Positions 26,217 to 40,412 of a DNA stretch of 64,000 nt are shown here, one piece after another. Source of the stretch: Flavobacterium tiangeerense (lineage in GTDB: Bacteria > Bacteroidota > Bacteroidia > Flavobacteriales > Flavobacteriaceae); the NCBI RefSeq assembly GCF_007830355.1, contig NZ_VLKO01000001.1, positions 124,001-188,000 of the forward strand, read 5' to 3'. Below the pieces are notes generated by a model that was not told where the DNA came from, searched no databases, and saw only the letters and a program-made list of their open reading frames with translations. A program made the translations under genes and the position numbers. Numbering within the stretch: position 1 is the stretch's first letter; each line of letters opens with the position of its first letter.

Positions 26217-26346
26217 GGTCTTTTGGTTTATGTTTAATAATTGTTTTTTGAAGCTATTTCAATATTGAAATAGCATATCAGGAATTCCTTGTACTTGTAA
26301 TATTACATTACAAATCTATGTCGATTCTAAAGTTTGGCTTTAGACT

Positions 26347-26357
26347 AAAAGTGTAAA
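26347..26357 (+). promoter_or_regulatory. AAAAGTGTAAA site
   Basis: A half-site of the palindrome at 22432, 130 bp upstream of the small lipoprotein start. It sits in the gap feeding the kinase operon. Confidence 0.4.
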
Positions 26358-26710: not shown

Positions 26711-26735
26711 AAAAGTGTAATGAAAAAGTGTAAAA
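26711..26735 (+). promoter_or_regulatory. Tandem pair of AAAAGTGTAA sites
   Basis: Two copies, AAAAGTGTAA (26711-26720) and AAAAAGTGTAAAA (26723-26735), lie in direct repeat about 12-13 bp apart, roughly one helical turn. This spacing fits a dimeric regulator. Confidence 0.45.
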
Positions 26736-27303
26736 TTTCATTGATGTTGTAGTTAGAACAGGATTAAACAAGCCTAAGTTTTATTTAAAACAAAGCTTTT
26801 ATCAGCCAAAATATCAATACTACTGTTTCATCAAATAGATGAAGTAATACTACTTTAGAACGAGGTGAGATAAGAGTTAAACTGAAATATAGAAGAAGTC
26901 TCGATTTTTCAATCTGGCACAGGAATTTAAAATCCTAACAAAAACTTTGTATCTTCACTTCAAGCCAATAAAAAAAACTTGAAGTATGACTGACTTTTAA
27001 ATAAAGATACTGGAAAACACCGCAGCCAGAAGCTTCTTTAAGTATTTGAAAACTGACCAAAAAGTATAATCAATAGATTTTTAACTACTAATCAATAGGA
27101 ACAAACTGTTTTAACAGTACCAACAAAGCTGAAAAAATTAATGAAAATTGCAATTTAAAACAACTATAAGTAAGTAAGTAGGTCAGCCTTCAATTAAAAA
27201 TCGTTAAAGAACTCAGATTTAAAATTGATGACTTAAATGTTGCTAACTATATGAATCCAATTTAATTTACAAATCACGATTATATTCACTTCATACGATA
27301 AAC

Positions 27304-28041
27304 TTACTTAAAGTATGCCGTTCCTATTTGATCAACAGTAAAATTCACTAATCCTTTTAGAATAAGTAAAAGACACGCATTAAGTATAATAAAGATAAAA
27401 AGAGTACTTTTTTTGTATTGAAATTTTGAAAAAAATTGATAGAAAAAAAAGCACATATAAATGAATTCTAACAAAGGATTAAACAAATTTAATACGCTTA
27501 AAACTTTTATGTTCCCGTAAAAGACTGTTAAGCTTGTAAAAAATAAACCTATTATTAATATCCCATTTATTAAATACATAGCCATTACAAGATGTTCTAT
27601 GTAATTTAATTTAGCTTTTTTAAAGACACAATAACTAGCAAAAGCATAAAAAGGAACAGTGGCTAATAAAATAAATTTAGCAAAATCTTTTGCCACTTTA
27701 TGAAATCCTGACATTTTACCGTTTTCAAATAATTGATCACCGGTAATTTGTGAATAATTCCCAATGAAATGACCTGCAGCAAGGAGTAGAATAAAGCCTG
27801 TAAAATAATTAAAATGATCAACTCTTTTACCTTGTATATATTCTCTAACACTATGTCCAGGTCTAGTTACTAATTCCTTCAGAGTAAATAAAAAACCTTT
27901 GTCTAAATGAAACACGCCATGAATAAAGTCATGAATAACAAAATGTTTCATAGAAAATCTTTTTGTAGAAGATTTTTGCCCACAAAATGGGCAAAAATTA
28001 TTTTCTACTTCGCTATTACAGCTGAGACATTTTTTGGTCAT
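27304..28041 (-). CDS. DUF3667 zinc-ribbon membrane protein
   Basis: A 245-residue protein. An N-terminal zinc ribbon with two CxxC pairs (CLSCNSEVENNFCPFCGQK) leads into the conserved FVIHDFIHGVFHLDKGFLFTLKEL and RPGHSVREYIQGKRVDHFNY segment typical of DUF3667. Four or five membrane helices follow. The function of the family is unknown. It starts 31 bp after the JmjC-type oxygenase gene, so the two probably share a transcript. Given the locus, a role in peptide handling or immunity is possible, but the family also occurs elsewhere. Confidence 0.85.
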   Translation of the reverse strand: MTKKCLSCNSEVENNFCPFCGQKSSTKRFSMKHFVIHDFIHGVFHLDKGFLFTLKELVTRPGHSVREYIQGKRVDHFNYFTGFILLLAAGHFIGNYSQITGDQLFENGKMSGFHKVAKDFAKFILLATVPFYAFASYCVFKKAKLNYIEHLVMAMYLINGILIIGLFFTSLTVFYGNIKVLSVLNLFNPLLEFIYMCFFFYQFFSKFQYKKSTLFIFIILNACLLLILKGLVNFTVDQIGTAYFK

Positions 28042-28072
28042 ATTCTTTTATGCATCTAGTGAAAAACAAATA

Positions 28073-29287
28073 TTAATAAACAATTTTTAACAAACCTCCT
28101 CTAACAAGTCTTTTTGCTAATTTCACTTTGTTATCATCATTCACATATGGAATATCTTTAACATTAAATATACCTTTTTGCTCAGAAATAAATTCTAAGG
28201 TATTTGCAATTTGAGAAGGTCCTTTAATGGTATTTCCTTGAAACAAAATTCTAGCTCCTGTTACGTGATTAGTAACTTTAGACTTCAAACCTTCCCTTTT
28301 TATAAGTTTTGTATTTAAATCTAAATGATTTAAATGATCTAAACTTGAAAAATGACCATCTGGTTTCGGTTGCTCTTTAGTTCTAAATTCTTCTGATAAA
28401 ATATCTAAAGTCCCTTTAACATTATCTTTTTCAAAAACAGATTTTAAGATGTTCATTAAATCATTTTCTATATTTTGAGAAAGTAATCCAGTTTCATCAG
28501 CATTTAAATAACCAAGTGGAAGTGCTTTACGAAGCTCTATATGTTTTTGACCTAAACTAAGCATAGCTTTAGAAATGAAGTCTAACCATTGAGTAGAATG
28601 CACCCCTAAGGTAATATGCATAGAGGATTGGTCTGTGGTGTATGCCTCATGAGGCACACCTCTTGGCATATACAATACATCTCCAGCTTTCATTGTGATT
28701 TCTTTCGCCGCAGTTAAATGTTCTCTTTGGAAAATAGGCTGAAAACTATGCATTAATGGCGTTTTGTAATAAGTATCGTCATATAGAATCCAATGCTTTT
28801 CTCCCGAAATTTGTAAAGCAAATACATCATGTGTGTCATAGTGTGGCGATAATGCTTTTTCGTTTTCTGGTGTTAAATACAGATTGGCAACCACATGATG
28901 CCCCATATATTGACGAACACCCTCTACCAATTCCTTAATAGGATTCGAAAATCGCTGTATTTCATTTACTACAATAGTATGTCCATCTGCATAAGCAGCA
29001 TACAATTGATTAAGATTTAAACTTCCATCTTGGTTTTCATACACTGTTGGACTCATAGGTTGTTGACTTTTTACAACCCTAATACTATTTCCTCGTGGTC
29101 GTGTATATTGTAACAAAAGATCCAAATCTTTGATAGAAAAAAGATTGCTAAAGAACTCTGGATTTCCTCTTTGAATGTGTAAAACCTGATTCTCCCAATA
29201 GTTTTGTTCAAAATTTTCTAAACCGATAGGGTCAATTAATTCGCAAAAGTCTTTTATTGCGGTTTGTTTTTTTATGAATGCTTCCAT
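28073..29287 (-). CDS. JmjC/cupin-type Fe(II) 2-oxoglutarate oxygenase (ribosomal-oxygenase-like)
   Basis: A 404-residue protein resembling Cupin_4/YcfD-like hydroxylases. The N-terminal ~100 residues include the entry segment NYWENQVLHIQRGNPEFFSNLF. The JmjC core has the metal triad HxD in ALSPHYDTHDVFALQ and a distal His in YMPRGVPHEAYTT, with a KHWILYDD strand between them. A C-terminal winged-helix-like region (about 300-404) completes the usual architecture. Relatives hydroxylate ribosomal proteins or other peptides. Here it stands in a RiPP-like locus just after the precursors and small membrane proteins, so peptide hydroxylation is a real alternative. Confidence 0.85.
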   Translation of the reverse strand: MEAFIKKQTAIKDFCELIDPIGLENFEQNYWENQVLHIQRGNPEFFSNLFSIKDLDLLLQYTRPRGNSIRVVKSQQPMSPTVYENQDGSLNLNQLYAAYADGHTIVVNEIQRFSNPIKELVEGVRQYMGHHVVANLYLTPENEKALSPHYDTHDVFALQISGEKHWILYDDTYYKTPLMHSFQPIFQREHLTAAKEITMKAGDVLYMPRGVPHEAYTTDQSSMHITLGVHSTQWLDFISKAMLSLGQKHIELRKALPLGYLNADETGLLSQNIENDLMNILKSVFEKDNVKGTLDILSEEFRTKEQPKPDGHFSSLDHLNHLDLNTKLIKREGLKSKVTNHVTGARILFQGNTIKGPSQIANTLEFISEQKGIFNVKDIPYVNDDNKVKLAKRLVRGGLLKIVY

Positions 29288-29326
29288 GCTAGTAGTTTTT
29301 CATTTAATCTTGATTAAATTTTATTT

Positions 29327-29491
29327 TCAATTCTTTTCTATTTGTTTTGCAAACATATATATGCTGCAAAGTAAACATAAAACTGAAAACCCAAGTATCG
29401 ATAATTTTATTATACTACTTTGAATAGATAGACTTATTGGTACACTTATTATCCCTACTAATAGGTAAACAAATGGTGTTACTTTATTCAT
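29327..29491 (-). CDS. Tiny two-helix membrane protein C
   Basis: Starting at the ATG 29489-29491 gives 54 residues (MNKVTPFVYLLVGIISVP ...) with two hydrophobic helices and a short charged tail (FAKQIEKN). The longer frame upstream adds 23 residues that look untranslated. Third of three small membrane proteins placed between the precursors and the oxygenase gene. No family recognised. Confidence 0.6.
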   Translation of the reverse strand: MNKVTPFVYLLVGIISVPISLSIQSSIIKLSILGFSVLCLLCSIYMFAKQIEKN

Positions 29492-29617
29492 ATATAATTG
29501 ATTTGAAAAAAAAATTCGGAAGACCTGAAAATATAATATTGCTTCAAAATTTTGGGACACATGAAAAATCTAACATCGTCACATGTCCCAAAAATTGATA
29601 AGTTGAACTATTTCATT

Positions 29618-29806
29618 CTATTTTTTAAATTTTAAAACAAAATAAACTGCATTTACAAATAGAATTATTAGTCCAGTAGCCATATATGGATAACCTATTT
29701 TTTTATTATTCGCATATGGTAGATTATTGCCATAATAACTTAGCCATAGACCAATTACAATGCTCACAAAGCATATTAATGATAAAATATTTTTATCTTT
29801 TGGCAT
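29618..29806 (-). CDS. Tiny two-helix membrane protein B
   Basis: 62 residues with two membrane helices (ILSLICFVSIVIGLWLSYYG and ATGLIILFVNAVYFVLKF) joined by a polar loop (NNLPYANNKKIGYPY). It lies 7 bp after membrane protein A. Size, hydrophobicity and position resemble bacteriocin immunity proteins, but no family is recognised. Confidence 0.65.
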   Translation of the reverse strand: MPKDKNILSLICFVSIVIGLWLSYYGNNLPYANNKKIGYPYMATGLIILFVNAVYFVLKFKK

Positions 29807-29813
29807 GGAATAA

Positions 29814-29984
29814 TTATTTTTTCTTTTTTCTTTCTTTAATTAAAAAAGTTAAATTTATTATTTGTAGTAAAACACCAATGCATATAATAATAATGCCTAA
29901 CTCATTTTGTTTGAAAACTACAAAAGAAATTACACCAAAGGTTGCTACTATTAAACCAATAATCGGAAGTAGTACGTTTTTCAT
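29814..29984 (-). CDS. Tiny two-helix membrane protein A
   Basis: 56 residues: MKNVLLPIIGLIVATFGVIS begins helix one and GIIIICIGVLLQIINLTFLI forms helix two, with a basic tail KERKKKK on the cytoplasmic side. It follows the last precursor gene by 220 bp and overlaps no other gene. A half-site TTTACACTTT lies 136 bp upstream. Possible immunity protein. Confidence 0.65.
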   Translation of the reverse strand: MKNVLLPIIGLIVATFGVISFVVFKQNELGIIIICIGVLLQIINLTFLIKERKKKK

Positions 29985-30119
29985 TTTTTTTTGAATAGTA
30001 AAATGTATAAATTATTATAAGGATGTTAGCCTAAATTAGTGGAATTTAAAAAGAACATCTATCAATCAATGGATAGATCTCGTAATTATTGCAAAATCTT
30101 CTTTAAAAATAGGTATTTA

Positions 30120-30129
30120 TTTACACTTT
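30120..30129 (-). promoter_or_regulatory. TTTACACTTT (AAAGTGTAAA) site upstream of the small membrane proteins
   Basis: Reverse complement of the half-site seen at 22442, 26347 and 26711. It lies between the last precursor gene and the first small membrane protein gene. Confidence 0.4.
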
Positions 30130-30204
30130 AATTTCCAACTCTCAAAAACCTAATTTGCTTTTCCATTAGTTTTGGCTAAGAACCAATTATATTATTATGA
30201 ATTA

Positions 30205-30564
30205 TCAATCTAAAAGATAACAAATTGCGTACGCAGACGCTGCTCCTACTAATCCAGAGCCAATAATAATTGCTGCACCTGCCAAAATAAACTCACCGCC
30301 GGATACAAGTTCTAATTGCTCATCTGTAAGTTCTACTTCGTTAATATTAGGTTTTACAGGAATGTTAAAATAGATATAATTTGGATTTGATTGCTCCTCC
30401 ACAACTATATTCATTTCTTTAGAAATAGTCTTACCGTAAAGAGATTCTATAGCTAGATGTGGATTGTCTAATAGTTCTTTTTTGTAAGTTGGGCTCTCGA
30501 TTGTTTTTTTTACAACTTGATTTATTAAATCAACCCCTTTTTTCAGTTTTTCAGATGTTATCAT
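30205..30564 (-). CDS. NHLP-leader precursor 8 (Gly-rich bacteriocin-like core)
   Basis: A 119-residue precursor. The leader (1-90) follows the nitrile-hydratase-alpha-like pattern: ..LINQVVKKTIESPTYKKELL, a 'DNPHLAIESL' turn, strands ending in YIYFNIPV and the acidic ELTDEQLELVSGG site. The core after GG is 29 residues: EFILAGAAIIIGSGLVGAAS, then AYAICYLLD. It has small-residue spacing (GSGLVG, GAASAYA) like class IIb bacteriocins. The next gene upstream (30581) encodes a similar core, so the two may act as a pair. Exported and cleaved by the C39 transporter. Confidence 0.88.
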   Translation of the reverse strand: MITSEKLKKGVDLINQVVKKTIESPTYKKELLDNPHLAIESLYGKTISKEMNIVVEEQSNPNYIYFNIPVKPNINEVELTDEQLELVSGGEFILAGAAIIIGSGLVGAASAYAICYLLD

Positions 30565-30580
30565 TTTTTTTATTTTTTTA

Positions 30581-30937
30581 TTAATTAACCGCGGTACAGA
30601 TTGCTACACCAACTCCCATACCTGTTAAAAAAGCAGCTCCTATAGCAAGCCCTAAAACAATTTCTCCTCCAGATACAACATCAAGCTGTTCATCGGTCAA
30701 TTCTAAATTTTCTATTTGAATCTTTCTAGGTATATTTAAATAAATCATAGAAGAATTTGTCTGGTCCTCGACTACAAATTTATAATCACTAGTTACAGTA
30801 TTTCCGCTGACTGATTCAATCGTTGCAACTGGGTTTTTAATCAATTGATCTTTAAAAGTAGCACTTTCCCAAGCTTTTTCTATTAGAGTTTTCATTAACT
30901 CCGTACCTTGCTTTTGTTGTTCAATAGTGTATTTCAT
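30581..30937 (-). CDS. NHLP-leader precursor 7 (Gly-rich bacteriocin-like core)
   Basis: A 118-residue precursor whose leader closely parallels precursor 8 and ends ELTDEQLDVVSGG. The 27-residue core starts EIVLGLAIGAAFLTGMGVG and ends VAICTAVN, with GxxxG-type spacing expected of helix-helix pairing peptides. A single Cys sits near the C-terminus, as in precursor 8. The genes are 16 bp apart and certainly co-transcribed. The leader lacks the MEFT start shared by precursors 3-6, so these two form their own subgroup. Confidence 0.88.
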   Translation of the reverse strand: MKYTIEQQKQGTELMKTLIEKAWESATFKDQLIKNPVATIESVSGNTVTSDYKFVVEDQTNSSMIYLNIPRKIQIENLELTDEQLDVVSGGEIVLGLAIGAAFLTGMGVGVAICTAVN

Positions 30938-30970
30938 TTTTATAATTTTAATGTGTTAATAAATTATTCG

Positions 30971-31300
30971 TTATAAAACGCGATCTCCTCCTTGAAGAAT
31001 AGGGATATCAATAGGGTACCAAGGAAACAATAGCCCACCAGCAACAGCTTCTAATTGATCATCATTTAGTTCTACATCGTCCATTTGTTTTGAAGCAGCA
31101 GGAATGTTGATATAAACAACAGATTCATCTGTTTGATCTCTTACTACTAATGTTTTACCTTCCGGTAAATTTAGTTTTTTACCTGTTAATTTTTCAATTG
31201 CAGCTACTGGGTTTGCAGCTAATTCTGCTTTAAATGCAGTATCTTCCCATGCTTTTTGTACAATTTCGGCGTACAGTTTTTGATCGGGTGTAAATTCCAT
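30971..31300 (-). CDS. NHLP-leader precursor 6 (Pro/Trp-containing core)
   Basis: I start at the ATG 31298-31300 (MEFTPDQKLYAEIVQKAW), matching the sister genes; the open frame extends 28 codons upstream without conservation. The product has 109 residues. The leader runs to DDVELNDDQLEAVAGG and the core is LLFPWYPIDIPILQGGDRVL (20 residues). It contains FPW like precursors 4 and 5, and a second GG close to its end, so two cleavage points are conceivable. Confidence 0.88.
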   Translation of the reverse strand: MEFTPDQKLYAEIVQKAWEDTAFKAELAANPVAAIEKLTGKKLNLPEGKTLVVRDQTDESVVYINIPAASKQMDDVELNDDQLEAVAGGLLFPWYPIDIPILQGGDRVL

Positions 31301-31329
31301 TTTAATGAATTTATAATTATCAATTAGAT

Positions 31330-31668
31330 TTAATATAGTTCTGGTAAAGTAGGAATCCAAGGAAATGGAAAAGTTGGAGTACAACCACCCGGGCCTTCAA
31401 TTCCACCCGCTACAGCTTCTAATTGCTCTTCGTTCAGTTCTACATCTACTGATTTTTTTGGTGTTGCAGGAATGTTGATATAAACAACAGATTCATCTGT
31501 TTGATCTCTTACTACTAATGTTTTATCTTCTGGTAAATTCATTTTTTTCCCAGTAAACTTTTCTATTGCAGCAACAGGATTTGCTACTAATTCTTGTTTA
31601 AATGTAGCATCTTCCCATGCTTTTTGTACAATTTCTGCATACAGTTTTTGATCGGTTGTAAATTCCAT
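31330..31668 (-). CDS. NHLP-leader precursor 5 (Pro-rich core)
   Basis: A 112-residue precursor. The leader is nearly identical to that of precursor 4 (AEIVQKAWEDATFKQELVAN, KTLVVRDQTDESVVYINIPA, ELNEEQLEAVAGG). The core begins IEGPGGCTPTFPFPWIPTLP and ends ELY: Pro- and aromatic-rich with a single Cys. A second GG directly before the Cys (GPGGC) offers an alternative cleavage that would expose an N-terminal Cys. Genes 4 and 5, including their spacers, look like a recent tandem duplication of about 370 bp. Confidence 0.9.
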   Translation of the reverse strand: MEFTTDQKLYAEIVQKAWEDATFKQELVANPVAAIEKFTGKKMNLPEDKTLVVRDQTDESVVYINIPATPKKSVDVELNEEQLEAVAGGIEGPGGCTPTFPFPWIPTLPELY

Positions 31669-31699
31669 TTTAATAAATTTAATGTATTATTACTTAGAT

Positions 31700-32044
31700 T
31701 TAAATTAATTCTGGTAAAGTCGGGATCGGGTTCCAAGGAAATGGAAAAGTTGGAGTACAACCACCCGGACCTTCAATTCCACCCGCTACAGCTTCTAATT
31801 GCTCTTCGTTCAGCTCTACATCAACTGATTTTTTTGGTGTTGCAGGAATGTTGATATAAACAACAGATTCATCTGTTTGATCTCTTACTACTAATGTTTT
31901 ACCTTTTGGTAAATTCATTTTTTTTCCAGTCAATTTTTCTATTGCAGCAACAGGATTTGCTACTAATTCTTGTTTAAATGTAGCATCGTCCCATGCTTTT
32001 TGTACGATTTCTGCGTACATTTTCTGTTCTTGTGTAAATTCCAT
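31700..32044 (-). CDS. NHLP-leader precursor 4 (Pro-rich core)
   Basis: A 114-residue precursor starting MEFTQEQKMYAEIVQKAW. The leader ends ELNEEQLEAVAGG. The core begins IEGPGGCTPTFPFPWNPIPT and ends LPELI, two residues longer than the otherwise matching precursor 5 core. The divergence between copies falls mainly inside the core, as in precursor families where the product part evolves fastest. Confidence 0.9.
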   Translation of the reverse strand: MEFTQEQKMYAEIVQKAWDDATFKQELVANPVAAIEKLTGKKMNLPKGKTLVVRDQTDESVVYINIPATPKKSVDVELNEEQLEAVAGGIEGPGGCTPTFPFPWNPIPTLPELI

Positions 32045-32078
32045 TTGATTAATTTTATAGTTATTATTAGTTTAATTG

Positions 32079-32396
32079 CTATACGTTAAATGAAGGACAT
32101 ATAAAAAGTAAAAAGTCTTTAATAGGTGACTTGCCACCTGCAACAGCTTCTAACTGCTCTTCATTTAATTCCATGTTGTCAAAATCTACCTTAGCAGGTA
32201 TATTAATATAAACCGAAGACTCATCTGTTTGATCTCTTACAATCATTTTCTTTCCAGGTGGCAAGTTTATTTTTTTTCCAGTCAATCTTTCAATTGCAGC
32301 TATTGGGTTAGTCATTAACTCATCTTTGAAACTCTTATCTTCCCATGCTTTTTGTACAATTTCTGCGTACAGTTTTTGATCTTGTGTGAATTCCAT
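32079..32396 (-). CDS. NHLP-leader precursor 3 (short core with Cys)
   Basis: A 105-residue precursor with the MEFTQDQKLYAEIVQKAW start shared by precursors 3-6 (with variations) and the leader end NMELNEEQLEAVAGG. The core is only 17 residues, KSPIKDFLLFICPSFNV: basic N-terminus, hydrophobic middle and one Cys. Distinct from all other cores in the set. Confidence 0.88.
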   Translation of the reverse strand: MEFTQDQKLYAEIVQKAWEDKSFKDELMTNPIAAIERLTGKKINLPPGKKMIVRDQTDESSVYINIPAKVDFDNMELNEEQLEAVAGGKSPIKDFLLFICPSFNV

Positions 32397-32424
32397 ATTT
32401 ATTTAATTTTAGATTATAAAGAAG

Positions 32425-32760
32425 TTAGATTTTAATAATATCTTTCAATTCTGGAAATAAATTATTTACTAAATCAGCCCATACCGTTTGTCCACCTCCC
32501 GCAATAATTTCTAATTGCTCTTCATTAAGTTCTATATCTTCTATACTAGGTTCAACTGGAATATTCATGTAAACCTTTGATTTATCCGTTTGATCATTTA
32601 CCACTAGTGTTTTACCTTCTGGCAATATGATTTTTGCTCCTGTAAGATTCTCAATTGCTAGTATTGGATCACTTATTAAGTTTTTTCTAAAATCAATATC
32701 TTCCCATGCTTTTGAGATTATTAATCGTAAAACTTCTTCTTTATTTTTATTTTGCCCCAT
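32425..32760 (-). CDS. NHLP-leader precursor 2 (amphipathic core)
   Basis: A 111-residue precursor, first of the seven-gene run. The leader is more diverged (MGQNKNKEEVLRLIISKAW) but keeps SDPILAIENLTG, KTLVVNDQTD and ELNEEQLEIIAGG. The 22-residue core begins GQTVWADLVNNLFPELKDII and ends KI: an amphipathic-helix pattern with one Trp. The 17-bp repeat element at 32812 lies 52 bp upstream. Confidence 0.88.
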   Translation of the reverse strand: MGQNKNKEEVLRLIISKAWEDIDFRKNLISDPILAIENLTGAKIILPEGKTLVVNDQTDKSKVYMNIPVEPSIEDIELNEEQLEIIAGGGQTVWADLVNNLFPELKDIIKI

Positions 32761-32769
32761 GACTCAATT

Positions 32770-33296
32770 TCTTAATTAATGTAAAATTAGCTGATCTGTT
32801 TGCGACAAAATTGCCAAAAAAACCGACAAAAAAAACATCCTAGTTGCAACCTGTTAAATCATAAATCACAAACCTGATTTTGTTTTTACTCTTTAAATCA
32901 TTCTCGTTATTAATGTAAAATTAGTAAGTCTATTTCTGATGAAATTGCCAAATAAACCGACAAAAAAACATCTTAATTACACTCTTTAAAAACTATAAGA
33001 TGTGAACTTCATTTTCTATAGCTTCATAATCCATTCTATTTTATTAATGTAAAATTAGTGAGTCAAATTCTCATGAAATTGCCAAATAAGCTGATAAATT
33101 ATAGCAAAACAAAATCAACAATTCAATCATTATCAATAATTTAGACCCAACATTAAGCACAATAAATTCAAGAACAGTTTATCATTTAAAAAAAGCTTAA
33201 TCAAAAAGATCATTTCTTACTGATCTTTAATTTGCTTTTTCATTGATGTAAATTTAAAGTATCTAATTCCTGTAAAACTGACAATTAGACTGACAA
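32770..33296 (-). repeat. Array of four diverged upstream repeats carrying a 17-bp TGCCA...GACA element
   Basis: The 17-mers are at 32812-32828, 32946-32962, 33080-33096 and 33279-33295, with consensus TGCCAAAnAAACYGACA; the last begins TGACA. The first three are spaced exactly 134 bp apart, and each is preceded on the plus strand by TTAATGTAAAATTAG. The units therefore are tandem repeats of about 134 bp, the last step being about 200 bp. A fifth 17-mer lies upstream of the separate precursor gene at 35786. The region holds no gene. It could be a multi-copy operator/promoter array, or the upstream regions left after loss of precursor genes. Confidence 0.7.
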
Positions 33297-33334
33297 AATT
33301 GAATTTGAAAATTAGTTTTAGTACTCGTGGTTAT

Positions 33335-35299
33335 TTAGTCGGAAATAATAGGATTCTTTTCAACAAAATACATTTTGATTTCTCCCTTCCCTTTTGCGTG
33401 AATGTTGCCGCGGTATTGAAAAACAAAAGATTCATCATCCTTGATTAAATCATATAGTGATTCGCTTATATTTACTTTACCTACAATTCCATTGCTTTCA
33501 ATTCTGCTAGCCGTATTCACCGTATCGCCCCACACATCATATTGAAACTTTTTTATTCCTACGATACCAGCTACAATGGGTCCTGCATGAATTCCTAATC
33601 GCATCTCAAAGGCTGGATTATTATTTGCTTCGTTATTAATTTTCCTTTTAGACATAAAATCCTGCATTTCTAATCCTGCAAGTACAATATTTGTTAAAGA
33701 TTCTTTATCAGGCTTGGGGATACCACCAGCTGCCATATAAGAATCACCTATTGTTTTAATTTTTTCAATTTTGTATTTTTCAGTGATTAAATCAAAAGCT
33801 TTGAAACAGGTATTTATTTCTTCAACTAAATTTTGAGGAGACATTTTCTCGGCGGTTTGAGTAAAGGATTTAAAATCTGAGAAAAGAATCGAAACTAAAT
33901 TAAAGTCTCGGGCATTAACAAAACCCTTTTCTTTTAATTCTTGTGCAATTTCTTCAGGTAAAATATTTAGCAATAGCTCTTCAGAGAGGTCTTTTTCAAT
34001 TTTTAAAGCAATTTTAGATTTTCGTGTATAGTTTAATCTATTCCATAATCCTAAAGCTACAAGAACAATAAAGCCTAATGAGATAATGATAATATTGCGT
34101 TGCGTTTCCTTTTTTTGAACTTCTTCTTTATGTTTGATTTCAACAGCATGTTCCTTATTTACATGAGAGATACTATCTAGTAACTGTTGACGTTGAAACT
34201 CCATATTCATCATTTTATTTGAAGTTTCGCCAGATTTTAAACTGTCCTTAAAATTTATTGATTTTTCATAAAAATGAAGAGCCAATTTATCATTTTGACT
34301 AGATTTATAAGCTTTATAAAGACAATCACATGCCTCTTTTTTTACAGATATAGCTCCTATTTTTTGGGCGGTAGTATAACCTTTTAAACATTTTGTAATT
34401 GCTTGCTTATTTTTACCTACATTATTTAGTATTTTTCCAAGGGCAACTTCTGCTATGCTTATATATTGTAGACTATTAATTTCGGTAGCATATTTTAAAG
34501 AAAGATTGTAGTTAAATAATGCTCGCTGAAAATTTGATTGTTTAAAAAACAATTCGCCTAAACTCGATAAAATTTCAATTTTTAATTGTTTATCATTTAT
34601 TTGGTTTGCATTCTCTAATGCTTGGTTTAAATTTTTTAGTGCTTTTGGGTAATTGGATAATTTTATATAAACAATCCCAGACGCATTTAAGTTTTGAGAG
34701 ATTGCTTTTAAATCAGTACTATTTTTATAAATCAAATAAGATTTACGAAAGTATTTAAGTGCATTGGGATAATCTTCTACTTGTGAATATATTGCACCAA
34801 TATTTTGAGAGGTTCCTGCAGTCATTTTCATATCTTTGAGCTCTTCTTGAACAACAATTGCTTGTTTATAATAATTTAAGGCTTCTAGATAGTTTCCTAA
34901 ATAATAATAAACCCCTCCGATATTATTTAAAATAGAAGAAATTCCTTTTTTGTACTTTGTTTTTTTATATACTTCGTTACTTTTCTTAAAAAAGTGTAAA
35001 GCATTTGAATAATCTCCTTTATAATAAAAGGTTACTGCTTTATAACTAAAACAGTCACCCACATTTTTACTTTTACCCAAATGATTATAAATCCTTAAAC
35101 TTTTGTCAAATAAGAGTAATGATTTTGAATACTCTCCTGCATCTTGATATTTCATACCAAGATTTAGAATAGAGTCAGCCATTTTAATATTTTCCTTTTT
35201 TGTTAGAATAATTTTTTGTTTAATTCTTGATTGCCCAAAAAAAGATATTCCATTAAATAATAGAAAAATAGAGAAAACAATTTGTATGACTCTTTTCAT
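33335..35299 (-). CDS. TPR-domain class III adenylate cyclase
   Basis: A 654-residue protein. A signal peptide/anchor (MKRVIQIVFSIFLLFNGISFF) and about eight TPR repeats (40-370) precede a membrane helix (IIIISLGFIVLVALGLW, about 405-422) and a cytoplasmic class III cyclase domain (about 450-650). The metal-binding Asp residues are in ILFSDFKSF and TIGDSYMAA. The adenine-type residues are Lys in KIKTIGD and Asp in QYDVWGDTVN, and the Asn/Arg pair is in NTASR. This pattern specifies ATP, so the product should be cAMP. It lies between precursor genes and may supply the cNMP-binding protein of the export operon. A signal sensed by its TPR region remains unknown. Confidence 0.92.
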   Translation of the reverse strand: MKRVIQIVFSIFLLFNGISFFGQSRIKQKIILTKKENIKMADSILNLGMKYQDAGEYSKSLLLFDKSLRIYNHLGKSKNVGDCFSYKAVTFYYKGDYSNALHFFKKSNEVYKKTKYKKGISSILNNIGGVYYYLGNYLEALNYYKQAIVVQEELKDMKMTAGTSQNIGAIYSQVEDYPNALKYFRKSYLIYKNSTDLKAISQNLNASGIVYIKLSNYPKALKNLNQALENANQINDKQLKIEILSSLGELFFKQSNFQRALFNYNLSLKYATEINSLQYISIAEVALGKILNNVGKNKQAITKCLKGYTTAQKIGAISVKKEACDCLYKAYKSSQNDKLALHFYEKSINFKDSLKSGETSNKMMNMEFQRQQLLDSISHVNKEHAVEIKHKEEVQKKETQRNIIIISLGFIVLVALGLWNRLNYTRKSKIALKIEKDLSEELLLNILPEEIAQELKEKGFVNARDFNLVSILFSDFKSFTQTAEKMSPQNLVEEINTCFKAFDLITEKYKIEKIKTIGDSYMAAGGIPKPDKESLTNIVLAGLEMQDFMSKRKINNEANNNPAFEMRLGIHAGPIVAGIVGIKKFQYDVWGDTVNTASRIESNGIVGKVNISESLYDLIKDDESFVFQYRGNIHAKGKGEIKMYFVEKNPIISD

Positions 35300-35325
35300 G
35301 AGTATAGTTGTTATGATTAAATATG

Positions 35326-35362
35326 AAAACGTACATATTCAAGTTTAGAATAGGTACGTTTT
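35326..35362 (-). terminator. Terminator of precursor gene 1
   Basis: A perfect 9-bp inverted repeat, AAAACGTAC ... GTACGTTTT, with a 19-nt loop and a T run on the minus strand. It lies 30 bp after the stop of the precursor at 35392 and separates it from the cyclase gene. Confidence 0.65.
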
Positions 35363-35391
35363 TAATATTTAAAATTGCAAATAAGTTAAAT

Positions 35392-35721
35392 TTATTTAAA
35401 GATATCCCCTGTATAATTGTTGGGCTTAATTATAACTGGGGGTATTATATCTCCATCCCCACCTGATACAATGTCTAATTGCTCTTCATTTAATTCTACA
35501 TCATCCATATTAACCTCAGCTGGAATATTGATGAAAATTGTTGAGAAATTTGTTTGATCAACAAATGCAATATTCTTCCCCTCTGGCAAATGAAAAGGCT
35601 GCCCTAAAAATTTTTCTATAGTTGTGATGGGGCTAGCTATTAAATTGCTTTTAAAAGTTGGATCTTGCCATGCCTTTTTAATAATTGCATCTAGAATTTT
35701 TTGGTCTTTAGTTAATTCCAT
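35392..35721 (-). CDS. NHLP-leader precursor 1 (separate copy)
   Basis: A 109-residue precursor set apart from the others by the cyclase gene. The leader keeps the family pattern (LDAIIKKAWQDPTFKSNLIA, GKNIAFVDQTNFSTIFINIP, ELNEEQLDIVSGG). The core is 21 residues, beginning DGDIIPPVIIKPNNYTGDIF: acidic start, Pro-containing, no Cys. It has its own terminator and its own copy of the 17-bp upstream element at 35786. Confidence 0.88.
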   Translation of the reverse strand: MELTKDQKILDAIIKKAWQDPTFKSNLIASPITTIEKFLGQPFHLPEGKNIAFVDQTNFSTIFINIPAEVNMDDVELNEEQLDIVSGGDGDIIPPVIIKPNNYTGDIFK

Positions 35722-35785
35722 TTTTGTAGTTTTTATTAATTCATTTTTAGAATTGTGAAATTAACTTCTTATTTACGAACAGAAA

Positions 35786-35802
35786 TGCCAAAAATGCTGA
35801 CA
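35786..35802 (-). promoter_or_regulatory. 17-bp TGCCA...GACA element upstream of precursor 1
   Basis: TGCCAAAAATGCTGACA, 65 bp upstream of the start, is the fifth copy of the element found four times upstream of the seven-gene precursor run. Conservation at an unlinked promoter argues for a regulatory role. Confidence 0.6.
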
Positions 35803-35889
35803 AAAAGATTCATTAATTGATCAGCATAAGGTTTCTTAAAAGAATTTTTCTCCTATTAATTATTATGAATTGAATGATTCACTAATAAA

Positions 35890-35931
35890 ATTCATCTGAG
35901 ATATCGGGTTCAAATCTCGGTATCGCTACAA
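35890..35931 (+). repeat. tRNA 3'-half scar, copy 3 (most decayed)
   Basis: ATTCAT-CTGAG-AT-ATCGGG then TTCAAATCTCGG-TATCGCTAC aligns with scar 1 after a 4-nt deletion (AACC) and a few substitutions in the variable loop and T stem. A weak palindrome, GTTTAAA-T-TTTAAAC (about 35950-35964), follows where scars 1 and 2 have terminators. This is the right boundary of the peptide locus. Confidence 0.6.
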
Positions 35932-36099
35932 GTTTTAAAAATCAAAAAGTTTAAATTTTAAACGGTATTAAAGCAATTTAACACCACTTTTTTATGTATA
36001 ATTTGTTGCGATATTTGCCATGTGAACACCATTAAAGTAGACGAATTTATGGCATAAGCTAAAGGAATTTTAATCGCCGTTGAAATTATTGCAGCTACT

Positions 36100-36222
36100 A
36101 CTAAATATATTACAAAAGAACGGGTTCAAGATTTAGAGCATCAACTAAACGATAGACCCAAAAAAAAAAGATTTGGTTATAAAACACCAAAACAAGTTCA
36201 TTTAAATATATTAACAAATCAG
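36100..36222 (+). pseudogene. IS30-like transposase C-terminal remnant
   Basis: The frame reads ITKERVQDLEHQLNDRPKKK and then RFGYKTPKQVHLN, matching the NRPRKRLGFKTPNEV tail of IS30-family transposases. The upstream domain is missing and a stop lies at 36055-36057 in the same frame. The element is dead; no terminal repeats were identified. It lies about 170 bp from tRNA scar 3. Confidence 0.6.
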
Positions 36223-36271
36223 CTAAAACTTATAATTATAACTCTAATCCGCCCATTAAAAATTCATCCCC

Positions 36272-36304
36272 AACCGCAATTGCTAAGCTTTTGCGGTTTT
36301 TTTG
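36272..36304 (+). terminator. Rho-independent terminator
   Basis: AACCGCAA (36272-36279) pairs with TTGCGGTT (36291-36298), followed by TTTTTTTG. It insulates the OmpA-like gene from the transposase remnant. Confidence 0.7.
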
Positions 36305-36401
36305 TGCTTTTTCAAAATAAGGATTTAAAAAAACAAACAACTGACTATTAGTTATTTATGATTTTTTCCTAAATTTGATAAGAATCTTAATCACAAAAAT
36401 T

Positions 36402-37304
36402 ATGTCAAAAAAAATTCTTTATCTTTTAGGAATTGCACTTACCATTATTTTAGGTATGTTTTTGTACCAAAACTACTGTTGCAATTGCTGTATGAAGCCT
36501 CCGAAATTAGACAACTCAACTACTGTTGTCAATAACAAGAGAACTGGTTTAGTTCCTTTTACAATTAAAGGGAGTGATTTCGACTACCATTGTAATGACA
36601 ATATAAAATTTGTCAAAAACGAAAAAGCTGCTCTTGTACCCTTTTCTGATTCTGTTGCAATTGGATTTAAAAATCTGAAAACAGCATTGCAATCTAATCC
36701 TAATAAAAAAATTAAGATTACAGGTTATGCCACTTCCGACGAAAAAAACACCACAACTTTTCAGAATTTAGCCCTGGCTCGAGCTAATGATCTAAAAAAG
36801 TATTTAATTTCAACTGGTTTTGATGCCAATTCTTTTGTTTTAGAAGGAGAAATTAAAGATAAATGGGAAATGAATTCAGACACACTTATTGGTCCTGCAT
36901 CGTTTAACATCATTGAAAACGAACCCGCAAGCAACAATCAATGGGAGGTGTTAAAAGCAAAAATCAATGCAAATCCACTCGTATTGTATTTCAACACGAA
37001 TGAATCTCGAGAGAACTTGAGTACCGAAGAGCAAACTAAAATTGCTGAAATAGCAACTTATTTAAAAAATGTTCCTAACGCAAAAGTGAGTATTGTAGGG
37101 CATTCCGACAGTGTTGGTGCAAGAGAAGCAAACATTGTTCTGGGACAATCACGTGCTGAATTTGCTAAAGCATTTTTAATAAAAAAAGGAATTGATTCAA
37201 AACAAATTCAAACCAGTTCGCAAGGTCCAGACAATCCAATTGCAGACAACACAAGCGAAGAAGGAAAATCAAAAAACAGAAGAACAGTTGTTACTATAAA
37301 ATAA
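36402..37304 (+). CDS. OmpA-family protein with two OmpA-like domains
   Basis: I start at ATG 36402 (MSKKILYLLGIALTIILGMF), giving a clean N-terminal helix/signal anchor and 300 residues; an upstream start at 36375 adds nine unconserved residues. Domain one (about 75-165) has NPNKKIKITGYATSDE and LARANDLKKYLIS. Domain two (about 195-300) has LYFNTNES, AKVSIVGHSDSVGAREANI, LGQSRAEFAKAFLI and SKNRRTVV. These are the peptidoglycan-binding signature of OmpA/Pal domains. No beta-barrel is present. It lies 18 bp before the helix-hairpin-helix protein gene. Confidence 0.88.
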   Translation: MSKKILYLLGIALTIILGMFLYQNYCCNCCMKPPKLDNSTTVVNNKRTGLVPFTIKGSDFDYHCNDNIKFVKNEKAALVPFSDSVAIGFKNLKTALQSNPNKKIKITGYATSDEKNTTTFQNLALARANDLKKYLISTGFDANSFVLEGEIKDKWEMNSDTLIGPASFNIIENEPASNNQWEVLKAKINANPLVLYFNTNESRENLSTEEQTKIAEIATYLKNVPNAKVSIVGHSDSVGAREANIVLGQSRAEFAKAFLIKKGIDSKQIQTSSQGPDNPIADNTSEEGKSKNRRTVVTIK

Positions 37305-37322
37305 CCAAAAACACATTTAATT

Positions 37323-37868
37323 ATGAATATACCATGTATCTTAATACCCTTAATAGTAGGGTTAATTTGTGCCTTATTAGGCTATTTGTTAGGAAAGTTG
37401 TTGTCCAAAAACAATTCCGATTCAAGTTCTTTGAAAAATGATTTGGATGCTTGTTTGCAAAAATCAAATCAATATTCTAAAACTATTGCCGACTTAGAGG
37501 CTGAATTGGCAAATGCCAAAAAAGCAACTTTTCAATCTTTTGCAACTGTACCCGATGCGCCTAAATTTTTATTCGATTCCGAATTAGCAGCTTCGGTTTT
37601 TGGAAAAAAAATCAAAGAAAATGATTTGAAAATTGTAGAAGGTATTGGTCCAAAAATCGAGGAATTATTTCACGCAGCAGGCATCAAAACTTGGCAAGCT
37701 ATGTCTGAATCCTCTGTTGAAAAACTCCAAAATGTTTTGGATTCAGGTGGCGAAAGATTTTCTGTTCACACACCCGGAACTTGGGCAAGACAAGCTGAAT
37801 TAGCATACCAAGGAAAATGGCAAGAATTAAAAGATTGGCAAGATAAATTAGACGGAGGAAAAGAATAA
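37323..37868 (+). CDS. Membrane-anchored helix-hairpin-helix protein
   Basis: 181 residues with one N-terminal membrane helix (IPLIVGLICALLGYLLGKLL), a coiled-coil linker (about 35-65) and a C-terminal HhH-type domain (LKIVEGIGPKIEELFHAAGI, then KTWQAM and TWARQAELAYQGKWQELK). The VEGIGPK motif suggests a nucleic-acid or protein-contact fold. It is in one operon with the OmpA-like gene and probably works with it at the cell envelope. Function unknown. Confidence 0.85.
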   Translation: MNIPCILIPLIVGLICALLGYLLGKLLSKNNSDSSSLKNDLDACLQKSNQYSKTIADLEAELANAKKATFQSFATVPDAPKFLFDSELAASVFGKKIKENDLKIVEGIGPKIEELFHAAGIKTWQAMSESSVEKLQNVLDSGGERFSVHTPGTWARQAELAYQGKWQELKDWQDKLDGGKE

Positions 37869-37890
37869 AAAAACATTATTTTATTTTTAA

Positions 37891-37927
37891 AAGCTACAAC
37901 GATACTCTTATTTGTTGTAGCTTTTTT
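37891..37927 (+). terminator. Terminator of the OmpA/HhH operon
   Basis: AAGCTACAAC pairs with GTTGTAGCTT across a 13-nt loop, followed by a T run, starting 22 bp after the stop. Confidence 0.85.
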
Positions 37928-38077
37928 GTTTATTTTAAGTTCTTTTATTTGTAAATTTTCACACTCTATTTTTTGACAACGATTTCATTAATTGATTTAC
38001 TTTATGGAAAAAGGAAAAAAGTAACGTTCTACACGCTAAATTGTACATTAAATTTTTCGGACTTAGAATTTTAATTC

Positions 38078-38275
38078 TTGAAATTTGTAGCCGATAATTC
38101 TAACTCAGCTACTACAGGAATGTATACTAAAACCAAAGACTGTAACGATGATGGTGAAATTAGCACAATTACCATTCGAACGTACATAGGAGGAAATACC
38201 TATGGTTCCCCATTGTATTTAAAATTAAAAAAAATCTGCTGGATCATAAAGAAAAAACCTTACTATACCGATTAA
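38078..38275 (+). CDS. Doubtful small reading frame
   Basis: 65 codons from a TTG, or about 50 from the internal ATG at 38120. It reads MYTKTKDCNDDGEISTITIR and onward with no domain I know. The wording is protein-like in the first half and frayed in the second, which suggests a decayed fragment rather than a working gene. It lies between two terminators. Confidence 0.25.
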   Translation: MKFVADNSNSATTGMYTKTKDCNDDGEISTITIRTYIGGNTYGSPLYLKLKKICWIIKKKPYYTD

Positions 38276-38349
38276 AAATCAACATAAATTAAAATTTTAG
38301 ATCCTACTTTAATTGAAATAGAACTTGCCAAAATGTTTTTTAAAACAAA

Positions 38350-38375
38350 AAAGCCCAGCATTTCTGCTGGGCTTT
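38350..38375. terminator. Terminator of the M13 peptidase gene (bidirectional)
   Basis: A perfect 11-bp stem, AAAGCCCAGCA / TGCTGGGCTTT, with a 4-nt loop, 19 bp after the peptidase stop on the minus strand. Confidence 0.85.
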
Positions 38376-38393
38376 CGTTTGATATCAAATAAT

Positions 38394-40412
38394 CTACCAA
38401 ATTTTAACACGTTTATCAGTTGCTAAATAAAGTGAATCTGTTGGCTTAATTTTAAATGCTTCGTAAAATTCTGGAACGTTGCGTACTACAGCATTAATTC
38501 TGAATTTAGCTGGCGAATGTGGATCAGAAGCAATTTGATTGCGTATTGCTTTTTCACGGCTTTTGTCCAACCACACTTGTCCCCAACCTAAAAACACTCT
38601 CTGAATCCCTGTGAAACCATCCATAACTGGTGCTTCTTTTCCGTTAAGGCTTAGTTTGTAGGCTTTAATTGCAATACTTAATCCTCCCAAATCTCCAATG
38701 TTTTCTCCAAGGGTAAACTCTCCGTTAAGATTCAAATCTGGAAATACTTTGAAAGTACTGTATTGATCTACTAATGATTTTGTTTTGGCTTTAAAAGCAG
38801 TTAAATCTTGTGGTGTCCACCAGTTTCTCATAACCCCTTCACCATCAAAAGTACTTCCTTGATCGTCAAAACCATGACCAATTTCATGACCAATTACCGC
38901 TCCAATTCCGCCATAATTCACGGCGTCTTCTGCTTTTAAATTAAAGAAAGGCGGTTGCAAAATAGCTGCTGGAAATACAATTTCGTTTAAGGTAGGATTG
39001 TAATAGGCGTTGACCGTTTGAGGTGTCATGCCCCACTCTGTTCTGTCAACAGGTTTTCCTAACTTGTTTAACATTCTGTTGTATTCAAATACTCTAGCTC
39101 TTTCTGCATTTCCATACAAATCGTTTTTAGCTACTTTTAATGCTGAATAATCTCTCCATTGGTCTGGATAACCAATTTTAATCATGAATTTATCTACTTT
39201 GGCAAGCGCCTCTTTCTTGGTGTTTGCACTCATCCAATCTAGCTTCTTGATACTTTCTGCATAAGCTTTCAAAAGATTTTTCACCATTCCGGTCATGCGT
39301 TCTTTTGCTTCTGGCGAGAAATGCTTTTTCACATATACTTTACCTACTATTTCTCCCAAACCACCGTTAACACTGCTTACACCTCTTTTCCAATCTTCTT
39401 CCTGAGCTTCTGTACCGTAAAGTGTTTTTCCGTAAAAGTCAAAATTTTGTTTGTCTAAAGCTGTTGTTAAATAATTGGAAGTATTGTTAATCAAACTCCA
39501 TTTAAGGTACGTTTTCCAAGTATCAATTGGCGTGTTTTTGATAATAGTATTTAAGCTTTTGGTATATTCCACCTGAGAAATTACGATTGTTTTTTCTTTA
39601 TCAATACCTGCATTTTTAAGCATTGCATTCCAATCGAAATCAGCCATTAATTTTTTTAAATCGGCTACATTGTATTTGTTATACAGTTTTGCCGTGTTTC
39701 TGGTTTCCTCTTTTTTCATGTGGTTGGTAGCCAATACGGTTTCCAAAGCCATGATTTTAGAAGCACTTTCAGCTGCATTTGGAAGCCCCACCAACTGCAA
39801 CATTTTTTCGATATGTGCTACATATTTCGCACGTGTTTCCACCATTTTAGCATCAGCTTGCAAATAGTATTCTCTTTCAGGAAGACCTAATCCGCCTTGC
39901 CAAGTCATTAACGTGTACTGTTTTGGGTTTTTAAAATCTTCGGTAACCACTACAGAGAAAGGCATTGAAACTCCTGTTCTGTTTGATTTTCCAAAATAAG
40001 CTGCCAAGTCCGTATAATTTGCAATAGCATCAATATTTTTCAATTCTGGTTGAATAGGCGCAATTCCTTTGGCATCACGGTCTTTTCTGTTCATGAAAGA
40101 GCTGTAGTAATCGCCAATTTTCTGTTCGTCTGAACCTTCGGCAAAAGTACCCTTTGATGCTTCTTCGATAATCGCTTTTACATCTTTTTGAGATTGATCA
40201 TACAAGATATCAAAAGCACCGTAAGACGTTTTATCAGCTGGAATTTTATTGTTTTTTACCCAAGTTCCGTTTACATAGGCATCAAAATTGTCACCAGGAT
40301 TCACAAGCGTGTCCATATTTTTTTTGGTAATACCCGAAATTAATTCTTCTTTTTTATTGCACGAAGCCATGAGAACGACTGCAGCAACCAAAGAAATTTT
40401 TAGATTTTTCAT
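38394..40412 (-). CDS. M13-family zinc metallopeptidase (neprilysin/PepO-like lipoprotein)
   Basis: 672 residues, the normal M13 length. The lipoprotein signal is MKNLKISLVAAVVLMASC, so it is probably anchored in a membrane facing the periplasm. The M13 N-terminal domain fills about 30-420. The zinc site is HEIGH in AVIGHEIGHGFDDQG, with the third ligand Glu and stabilising Asp in GENIGDLGGL. The substrate clamp is NAYYNP and the C-terminus ends in the family VKIW-like tail (KRVKIW). It degrades exported peptides. It is monocistronic, flanked by a terminator and an intergenic gap. Confidence 0.95.
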   Translation of the reverse strand: MKNLKISLVAAVVLMASCNKKEELISGITKKNMDTLVNPGDNFDAYVNGTWVKNNKIPADKTSYGAFDILYDQSQKDVKAIIEEASKGTFAEGSDEQKIGDYYSSFMNRKDRDAKGIAPIQPELKNIDAIANYTDLAAYFGKSNRTGVSMPFSVVVTEDFKNPKQYTLMTWQGGLGLPEREYYLQADAKMVETRAKYVAHIEKMLQLVGLPNAAESASKIMALETVLATNHMKKEETRNTAKLYNKYNVADLKKLMADFDWNAMLKNAGIDKEKTIVISQVEYTKSLNTIIKNTPIDTWKTYLKWSLINNTSNYLTTALDKQNFDFYGKTLYGTEAQEEDWKRGVSSVNGGLGEIVGKVYVKKHFSPEAKERMTGMVKNLLKAYAESIKKLDWMSANTKKEALAKVDKFMIKIGYPDQWRDYSALKVAKNDLYGNAERARVFEYNRMLNKLGKPVDRTEWGMTPQTVNAYYNPTLNEIVFPAAILQPPFFNLKAEDAVNYGGIGAVIGHEIGHGFDDQGSTFDGEGVMRNWWTPQDLTAFKAKTKSLVDQYSTFKVFPDLNLNGEFTLGENIGDLGGLSIAIKAYKLSLNGKEAPVMDGFTGIQRVFLGWGQVWLDKSREKAIRNQIASDPHSPAKFRINAVVRNVPEFYEAFKIKPTDSLYLATDKRVKIW

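Follow-up and report, generated by a model that had tools for sequence, protein, structure and literature searches.

In a 64,000-nucleotide (nt) stretch of the Flavobacterium tiangeerense genome (contig NZ_VLKO01000001.1, positions 124,001 to 188,000; hereafter the window), we identified a modular locus for NHLP (proteusin-type) precursor peptides, in which a fixed frame of export and control genes surrounds a cassette that is exchanged as a block. Judged by its sequence, the locus is of the known NHLP/NHLM kind, with recurrent peptide cores and an exchangeable enzyme slot. We propose that the cassette encodes a membrane-active pair of glycine-rich (type A) peptides, small open reading frames (ORFs) that would confer immunity and a JmjC enzyme that would tailor precursors, and we put the probability of this reading as a whole at about 0.5.

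Eight NHLP precursors and their exporter

The array consists of eight precursor genes, given here with their scores against the leader model TIGR03793 (leader_NHLP):
30205-30564, minus strand: P1, NHLP precursor with a type A (Gly-rich hydrophobic) core, EFILAGAAIIIGSGLVGAASAYAICYLLD; 54.5 bits
30581-30937, minus strand: P2, NHLP precursor with a type A core, EIVLGLAIGAAFLTGMGVGVAICTAVN; 52.3 bits
30971-31300, minus strand: P3, NHLP precursor with a Pro/Trp-containing core, LLFPWYPIDIPILQGGDRVL; 53.5 bits (longer TTG ORF)
31330-31668, minus strand: P4, NHLP precursor with a type B (Pro-rich, one Cys) core; 61.7 bits
31700-32044, minus strand: P5, NHLP precursor with a type B core; 60.5 bits
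32079-32396, minus strand: P6, NHLP precursor with a short one-Cys core, KSPIKDFLLFICPSFNV; 58.9 bits
32425-32760, minus strand: P7, NHLP precursor with an amphipathic-looking core conserved across species, GQTVWADLVNNLFPELKDIIKI; 53.2 bits
35392-35721, minus strand: P8, NHLP precursor with a core conserved across species, DGDIIPPVIIKPNNYTGDIFK; 45.1 bits

The start of P3 was placed at an internal ATG (31300) in preference to a TTG at 31384. An earlier note on this DNA, made from the letters alone, had described eight minus-strand genes sharing a GG leader of about 90 residues. The ORFs are present at those positions, and all eight leaders are 88-91 residues long and terminate in (V/I)(A/S)GG, with the GG present in 8/8. 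P1 to P7 scored above the curated cut-off (52.3-61.7 bits; cut-off 50.9), placing seven of the eight in the NHLP leader family by score and GG end, and P8 fell below it (E 6.5e-12). These eight were the only TIGR03793 matches genome-wide at E 0.001. Across the genus, matches of any score were found in 18 of 398 genomes, this one included, and exceeded the cut-off in 9. Rows from two genomes (G207 and G407) were rejected as precursors, as they look like nitrile hydratase alpha (open frames of 219-225 amino acids (aa)).

The export genes lie on the same strand:
12916-15822, minus strand: NHLM ABC permease/ATPase (TIGR03797, 860.7 bits; cut-off 709.4)
15833-18031, minus strand: C39 peptidase-ABC exporter (TIGR03796, 1038.8 bits; cut-off 853.3)
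18041-19303, minus strand: HlyD-type adaptor (TIGR03794, 300.9 bits; cut-off 156.2)
19317-20903, minus strand: OEP/TolC-like outer-membrane efflux protein (PF02321)

The three NHLM components are adjacent and each exceeds its cut-off. The C39 domain carries Q23, C29, H102 and D118, which we take to be the catalytic residues. The description of an intact C39 exporter, a second NHLM transporter, HlyD and TolC on one strand was therefore accurate. We read the locus as encoding a family of NHLP precursors served by a dedicated C39/NHLM exporter, and the peptides are probably secreted. It shares with the NHLP/NHLM systems of Haft et al. 2010 (PMC2887384; TIGR03793/03794/03796/03797) the long nitrile-hydratase-like GG leader, multiple precursors and the exporter trio. 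The window differs in its recurring core types, a frame with a cyclase and DUF7005, a JmjC or LanM-half enzyme in an exchangeable slot and immunity-like ORFs.

A conserved frame around an exchangeable cassette

We compared 14 complete loci (the window, F. limicola, G008, G083, G114, G135, G208, G327, G360, G415, G686, G715, G750 and G502). P8, the cyclase, P7, an AraC-type regulator, a cyclic-nucleotide-binding protein, TolC, HlyD, the C39-ABC exporter, the second ABC gene and DUF7005 recurred, i.e. an export and control frame is conserved around the locus. The cyclase lies between P7 and P8 in all 14 loci, with an extra gene separating it from P7 in G360, G114, G327 and G502. In G502, P7 and P8 are quite divergent and the precursor block is situated beyond DUF7005; G291 retains only P8 and a shortened cyclase.

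Within this frame, one segment is replaced in G415, the closest genome found, and it holds P1 to P6 together with these features:
26459-32424: exchangeable cassette, delimited by the break in identity with G415
27304-28041, minus strand: DUF3667 protein (PF12412; 49% in G415, 97% in F. limicola)
28073-29287, minus strand: JmjC_2 (ROX-type) Fe(II)/2-oxoglutarate oxygenase-like protein, candidate tailoring enzyme (PF08007, E 1.8e-28)
29327-29560, minus strand: small immunity-like two-helix membrane ORF, 77 aa, GTG start, two hydrophobic segments, more than 500 nt from P1
29618-29806, minus strand: small immunity-like two-helix membrane ORF, 62 aa, two hydrophobic segments, 399 nt from P1
29814-29984, minus strand: small immunity-like two-helix membrane ORF, 56 aa, two hydrophobic segments, 221 nt from P1

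The window and G415 are colinear at 95.7% identity over 9067-26458 and at 95.2% over 32425-40610; between these blocks there are only short matches of 68-72%. The right-hand boundary falls at the P7 stop codon, of which 32425 is the last base. Since G415 is ∼95% identical on both flanks yet carries a different cassette, diversity at this locus arises by block exchange, and the exchange separating G415 from the window looks recent. In the comparison with F. limicola, the two alignments of at least 90% leave out 29243-31399, which spans P1-P3 and the terminal part of P4 and partly aligns at 69-71%. Natural swaps of this kind between the window and G415 reveal parts that are compatible with one exporter, which is useful in peptide engineering.

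Core types recur and are inherited with their leaders

The earlier note regarded the cores as hypervariable and combinatorial, with likeness only in the pairs 4/5 and 7/8. Dissimilarity within the genome is real: among the 28 pairs of window cores, only P4/P5 was far above shuffled sequences (z 15.5; 22/23 aligned core residues identical), followed by P5/P7 (z 3.4), P3/P5 (2.4), P3/P4 (2.2) and P1/P2 (2.1). The likeness of 4/5 thus stands, but the pair counted from the high end as 7/8, which is P1/P2, has a z of just 2.1, and between species the P7 and P8 cores are conserved. When 90 precursors from 16 loci were typed, using rules devised after the sequences were read, 80 fell into six recurring types (SC 17, P8 15, A 15, B 15, P7 13 and P9 5), with 9 classed as other and 1 as none. 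The P3 core is 'other' by rule, and its leader falls, in an open fork, with those of type B. When 89 leaders were placed in a tree with the cores removed, 18 core-type changes were required compared with a shuffled mean of 58.9 (0/200 as low), and so there is no free reassortment of leaders and cores; the tree has few columns, near-copies on their own make labels cluster, and 'other' cores show no clustering. The combinatorial description is not upheld by these counts.

Core identity to F. limicola was 22/22 for P7, 18/21 for P8, 14/17 for P6 and 21/25 for P5. The ratio of non-synonymous to synonymous change (dN/dS) was below 1 for the P5, P6 and P8 cores, each core having 17-25 codons, a length at which NG86 estimates are rough (e.g. 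a dS of 1.04 for the P8 core). The P7 core is unchanged (dN and dS both 0) and is uninformative here. Hence the measurable cores are under purifying selection, and positive selection on the cores, for which a dN/dS comparison had been suggested, was rejected.

A further conserved peptide type, P9 (core ...LYDSL...), lies between the cyclic-nucleotide-binding and AraC genes in G008, G083, G208, G750 and G686 (L017, L046, L048, L099 and L101); core typing of the loci did not find it in the window.

A probable glycine-zipper pair next to small membrane ORFs

In seven loci the array finishes with two tandem cores that are hydrophobic and mostly Gly-rich (the exception being one core of G502), and the window has the arrangement of two adjacent GG-leader peptides seen in class IIb and Cdz-like bacteriocins, in the form of P1 and P2. 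The set analysed (n = 14) includes G502_9944, labelled 'o' by rule, and omits two G686 cores labelled A because they do not form a tandem pair of the same leader type. GxxxG was present in 12/14 of these type A cores (mean of composition-preserving shuffles 4.75; 0/2000 as high) and a small-xxx-G-xxx-small zipper in 11/14 (shuffle mean 3.44; 0/2000 as high). Among 75 other cores, the two motifs occurred at chance level, in 8 and 2 cores. The zipper is SGLVGAASA in P1 and AFLTGMGVG in P2, which has two GxxxG motifs; GxG and Gx5G spacings are likewise common in type A cores.

A small transmembrane (TM) ORF on the same strand within 500 nt downstream of the array was found in 7/7 loci with an A pair and 0/7 without one; this count covered 14 loci and the scan for hydrophobic segments 12. 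The 77-aa ORF has a relative in G715 (36.5%) that adjoins its A pair, and the 62-aa ORF has a 47.5% relative at the equivalent place in F. limicola. Taken together, the small membrane ORFs and the paired Gly-zipper peptides suggest a bacteriocin that would act on membranes and to which its producer would be immune. The closest working analogue would be Caulobacter Cdz (PMC5380434), which, like class IIb bacteriocins, has two neighbouring small hydrophobic Gly-zipper peptides; in Cdz these leave by type I secretion, and a small TM protein has been shown to provide immunity. Relative to Cdz and class IIb systems, the window has an NHLP leader, an enzyme slot and further peptides, lacks GxxxGxxxG and has a predicted killing role.

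Several observations weigh against this interpretation of the pair. Strict GxxxG is absent from P1, GxxxGxxxG is absent from all 14 A cores, and both the zipper motifs and the TM rule were selected after the sequences had been seen. By a like rule, small TM ORFs occur on the opposite strand in 2/14 loci. The seven loci without a pair have just 26-159 nt before the next gene, and as the gaps are smaller there and the loci are related, the Fisher P of 0.0003 for the association is overstated. The closest small ORF in the window begins 221 nt past P1, and the G208 ORF has one segment only.

A JmjC gene in an exchangeable enzyme slot

The statement that no classical tailoring enzyme is visible did not survive: a JmjC_2 gene lies beside the array, and the three close relatives found (71, 66 and 53%) are all within NHLP loci. 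The protein matches PF08007 with 99 bits (cut-off 22), its best PDB match is MINA53 (2xdv, E 6e-32), and the metal triad H149, D151 and H213 is retained in 5/5 aligned sequences (its own and four relatives), so that domain and HxD...H triad place it in the JmjC_2/ROX family. In the 398 genus genomes, which do not include F. limicola, only the protein itself and one 28% relative were found, ruling out a housekeeping ROX enzyme. Among 198 phylum genomes 16 matched, and only the window's own protein and that of G502 exceeded 33% identity. No NHLP leader lies within 1.5 kb of the other 14 matches (≤33% identity); for G502 itself, the leaders are outside the 1.5-kb flank (L108) and were found only in a wider stretch.

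Between the window and F. limicola, JmjC dN/dS is 0.19, i.e. the gene is under purifying selection. Its dS of 1.09, compared with 0.08-0.48 for six other genes, at this dN/dS favours homologous replacement under constraint over fast protein change.

Across the 14 loci, the slot between P7 and the regulators holds a DUF4135 protein in 10, JmjC in 4 (one with both) and only a glycosyltransferase (GT)-like protein in 1. The JmjC carriers are the window, F. limicola, G715 (next to the DUF4135 gene) and G502 (at the head of the exporter operon). In two DUF4135 proteins that were scanned, the LanM match is confined to the N-terminal half of the model (3-519 and 34-518 of 932), and Pfam LanC did not match any of the 10; on these matches, the slot in 10/13 other complete loci is occupied by what appears to be a stand-alone LanM dehydratase half. 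The dehydrazoles (Chryseobacterium carnipullorum CcaA; PMC10676384) likewise combine an NHLP leader and a DUF4135 enzyme, also in a Flavobacteriia host. A scan of 30 window proteins encoded between 2631 and 58147 found neither DUF4135/Lant_dehydr nor LanC, and the window therefore lacks the hallmarks of a lanthipeptide cluster. G750 encodes two GT-like proteins, and a related G083 protein matches a macrolide glycosyltransferase model weakly (E 0.00055). The GT-like cassette proteins of G083 and G750 (L046 and L099) have 392-394 aa, and neither of the two scanned matched Pfam.

A JmjC hydroxylase in a pathway for ribosomally synthesised and post-translationally modified peptides has a precedent in biphenomycin BipG/BpmG (PMC12707348, PMC12257519), also a JmjC-domain oxygenase. 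It acts on ornithine in a different precursor class, whereas the window cores hold one Arg in total, and the scan of 30 window proteins revealed no peptide arginase. The 28% genus relative belongs to G338 (L081), in which a 28-30% identical JmjC adjoins a C39 ABC exporter within a class I lanthipeptide cluster; this cluster differs in having LanB/LanC enzymes, and blastp found no NHLP precursor in its 20-kb stretch. We found no paper mentioning both JmjC and proteusin in a search that left subscription papers mostly outside.

Four points count against a tailoring role. P1-P8 cores together contain no His and a single Arg, so a MINA/NO66-like His or RoxA-like Arg reaction does not explain the enzyme. 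Arrays with both A and B cores exist without JmjC in G083, G208 and G750, and it is thus unnecessary for such cores. The G502 gene sits at the exporter operon, away from the precursors. Finally, the association of JmjC with A+B arrays is weak (4/4 versus 3/10, P 0.035).

A proposed mechanism and its rivals

We propose that the regulators turn the locus on and that JmjC would oxygenate one or more precursors, most plausibly within the P1-P6 cassette. The C39 domain would then cleave after GG, and the exporter-HlyD-TolC route would release the cores. P1 and P2 would act against bacterial competitors as a membrane-inserting Gly-zipper pair, from which the small two-helix proteins encoded between P1 and JmjC could shield the producer. 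Pro-rich peptides accompany the pair, some of them likely modified by JmjC, and the fixed P7 and P8 peptides may have another role, perhaps signalling. A more specific version, which we advance tentatively, is that a Bacteroidota chassis exports a self-immune glycine-zipper pair on proteusin leaders, matured both by JmjC and by DUF7005, whose HExxH family, hitherto undescribed, would be devoted to NHLP/Nif11 peptides. Toxin, immunity and enzyme would pass between species as a single block, leaving export, cyclic-nucleotide control and the two conserved peptides in place. Overall, the 'orphan arsenal' becomes a testable system whose parts are defined: an enzyme slot that pairs JmjC with NHLP, a possible unit of toxin and immunity, and DUF7005, a domain without assigned function that occurs together with NHLP genes or their exporter. 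F. limicola DSM 15094, a named strain, has a closely related array, making experiments possible.

Alternatively, all cassette peptides could be ordinary modified proteusins, with the small membrane ORFs serving as accessory or maturation factors and the zipper a by-product of hydrophobic, Gly-rich composition. The same A+B arrays do occur with LanM-half or GT-like enzymes (G083, G208 and G750), and LanM-like and DUF4135 enzymes with NHLP are already on record (PMC2887384, PMC10676384). This is nevertheless unlikely, given that P3 has no Ser, Thr or Cys in its core and P1 and P2 have three such residues each, that the zipper count exceeded all 2000 composition-preserving shuffles and that, among the 14 loci, small TM ORFs follow A-pair arrays only.

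Somewhat less likely still is a signalling system with P7 and P8 as pheromones, which the two-component kinase would sense or which would be tied to the cyclase; the variable peptides would play a secondary part. Both peptides are conserved across species and flank the cyclase (save for the extra gene noted above), the frame includes a cyclic-nucleotide-binding protein, and a histidine kinase and response regulator accompany 7/14 loci (the window, F. limicola, G415, G360, G114, G327 and G135). However, the other seven loci have no relative of this kinase-regulator pair, and the cassette, enzyme swaps and small membrane ORFs are left unexplained. We consider an unmodified combinatorial arsenal, with cores diversifying freely behind a common leader, to be the least probable of the three. 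Apart from P4/P5, the cores are nearly unrelated within the genome behind leaders of 36-92% identity, and hypervariable NHLP cores and natural combinatorial biosynthesis are reported in PMC2887384. Yet core types recur between species, leader and core are co-inherited, the dN/dS values and the invariant P7 core in F. limicola speak for constraint, and the cassette contains the JmjC gene.

DUF7005, a conserved HExxH protein of the frame

Next to the exporter, the frame holds a protein of the DUF7005 family:
11769-12893, minus strand: DUF7005 HExxH protein (PF22541, E 9.6e-119)

It carries H234-E235-x-x-H238, E255 and D259. Across 26 DUF7005 sequences, HExxH is invariant and a downstream Glu/Asp is conserved, with Glu255 nearly invariant but not universal. 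DUF7005 was present in 15/398 genus genomes, all among the 18 with TIGR03793 matches; the chance figure of 1.4e-24 assumes independence and is too small because of kinship. Its gene is next to the second ABC gene in each of the 14 complete loci; in G015, G106, G224, G241, G257 and G334 it neighbours a lone NHLP gene. In the phylum, 13 matches were found in 12/395 genomes: 9 are beside the second ABC gene, 1 is beside leaders with weak hits to a leader HMM (E 0.002-0.007), presumably Nif11-like, and 3 have neither within short flanks.

A structural model (pLDDT 87.6, pTM 0.88) had no good Foldseek match (best E 1.5), and no PDB sequence match was found at E up to 1. Several gluzincin-type metallopeptidases were among the weak VIA rows, whose top entries were dipeptidyl peptidase III (Z 4.2) and collagenases (Z 3.4-3.9), all below 5 and mixed with unrelated folds; the absence of a clear relative does not imply a new fold. 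Assignment to TIGR04267, the alpha-ketoglutarate HExxH peptide hydroxylases, was rejected at the sequence level, with no NCBIfam match at E 0.001 for the window protein or at E 0.1 for two divergent members, and no TIGR04267 match in 118 genomes that included DUF7005 carriers. We favour, at roughly even odds, a metallopeptidase that would trim leader or core; an oxygenase and a chaperone are each possible, with equal and lesser weight. No paper mentioning DUF7005 or PF22541 was found in the literature search, which mostly excluded subscription papers.

Among the lone NHLP genes, those of L076, L077, L078, L079 and L080 (from G224, G241, G257, G106 and G015), which neighbour DUF7005 and a GNAT-like gene, end just before the GG/core position. 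In 5/5, a ...LYNSL... core follows in a different frame past a run of 10-11 A, with purifying selection acting on the leader portion (dN 0.005-0.049, dS 0.02-0.38). The G106 gene has an additional stop within the core. Either a shared frame break or slippage-dependent expression could explain these genes.

Regulatory genes and neighbouring features

The remaining control genes and a repeat in the window are:
20890-21429, minus strand: cyclic-nucleotide-binding protein (PF00027; related to TIGR03896, 123.3 bits, below the cut-off of 161.05)
21530-22183, minus strand: AraC-type regulator of the fixed frame (PF12833)
23218-23880, minus strand: response regulator (receiver match 27.7 bits, just under the cut-off of 30.2)
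23887-25974, minus strand: TPR histidine kinase (HisKA_3/HATPase_c)
32775-33089, minus strand: 134-bp tandem repeat, 2.4 copies, in the 574-bp gap (32761-33334) upstream of P7
33335-35299, minus strand: TPR and class III nucleotidyl cyclase of the fixed frame (PF00211, E 8.7e-56)

The cyclase retains class III motifs, whose roles we assume, including a Lys and an Asp that we take to be a hallmark of adenylyl cyclases, and the cyclic-nucleotide-binding protein has a plausible phosphate-binding Arg. A cyclic nucleotide may therefore connect the two proteins. From its position, the 134-bp repeat may be promoter- or operator-like.

Three loci with S/C-type cores have a protein of 354-394 aa between the cyclase and P7 (L053:9281-10465, L055:9012-10094 and L052:2680-3744); the G114 copy, the only one scanned, had no Pfam match. 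GNAT-like, LuxR-type and ThiF-like genes occur in G008, G083 and G750 and, by resemblance, in G715, whose GNAT-like protein has no Pfam match. In the G008 set, the sole one scanned, FeeM scored 25.5 bits (below the cut-off of 27), and GerE and ThiF were above theirs. Split class I lanthipeptide dehydratases, with Lant_dehydr_N and Lant_dehydr_C as separate genes, lie near the NHLP export frame in L105 (G502) and L101 (G686). Lastly, the motif TTTGGCAATTTCATCAGAAAT occurs twice in the window when up to 3 mismatches are allowed, compared with a chance mean of 0.02.

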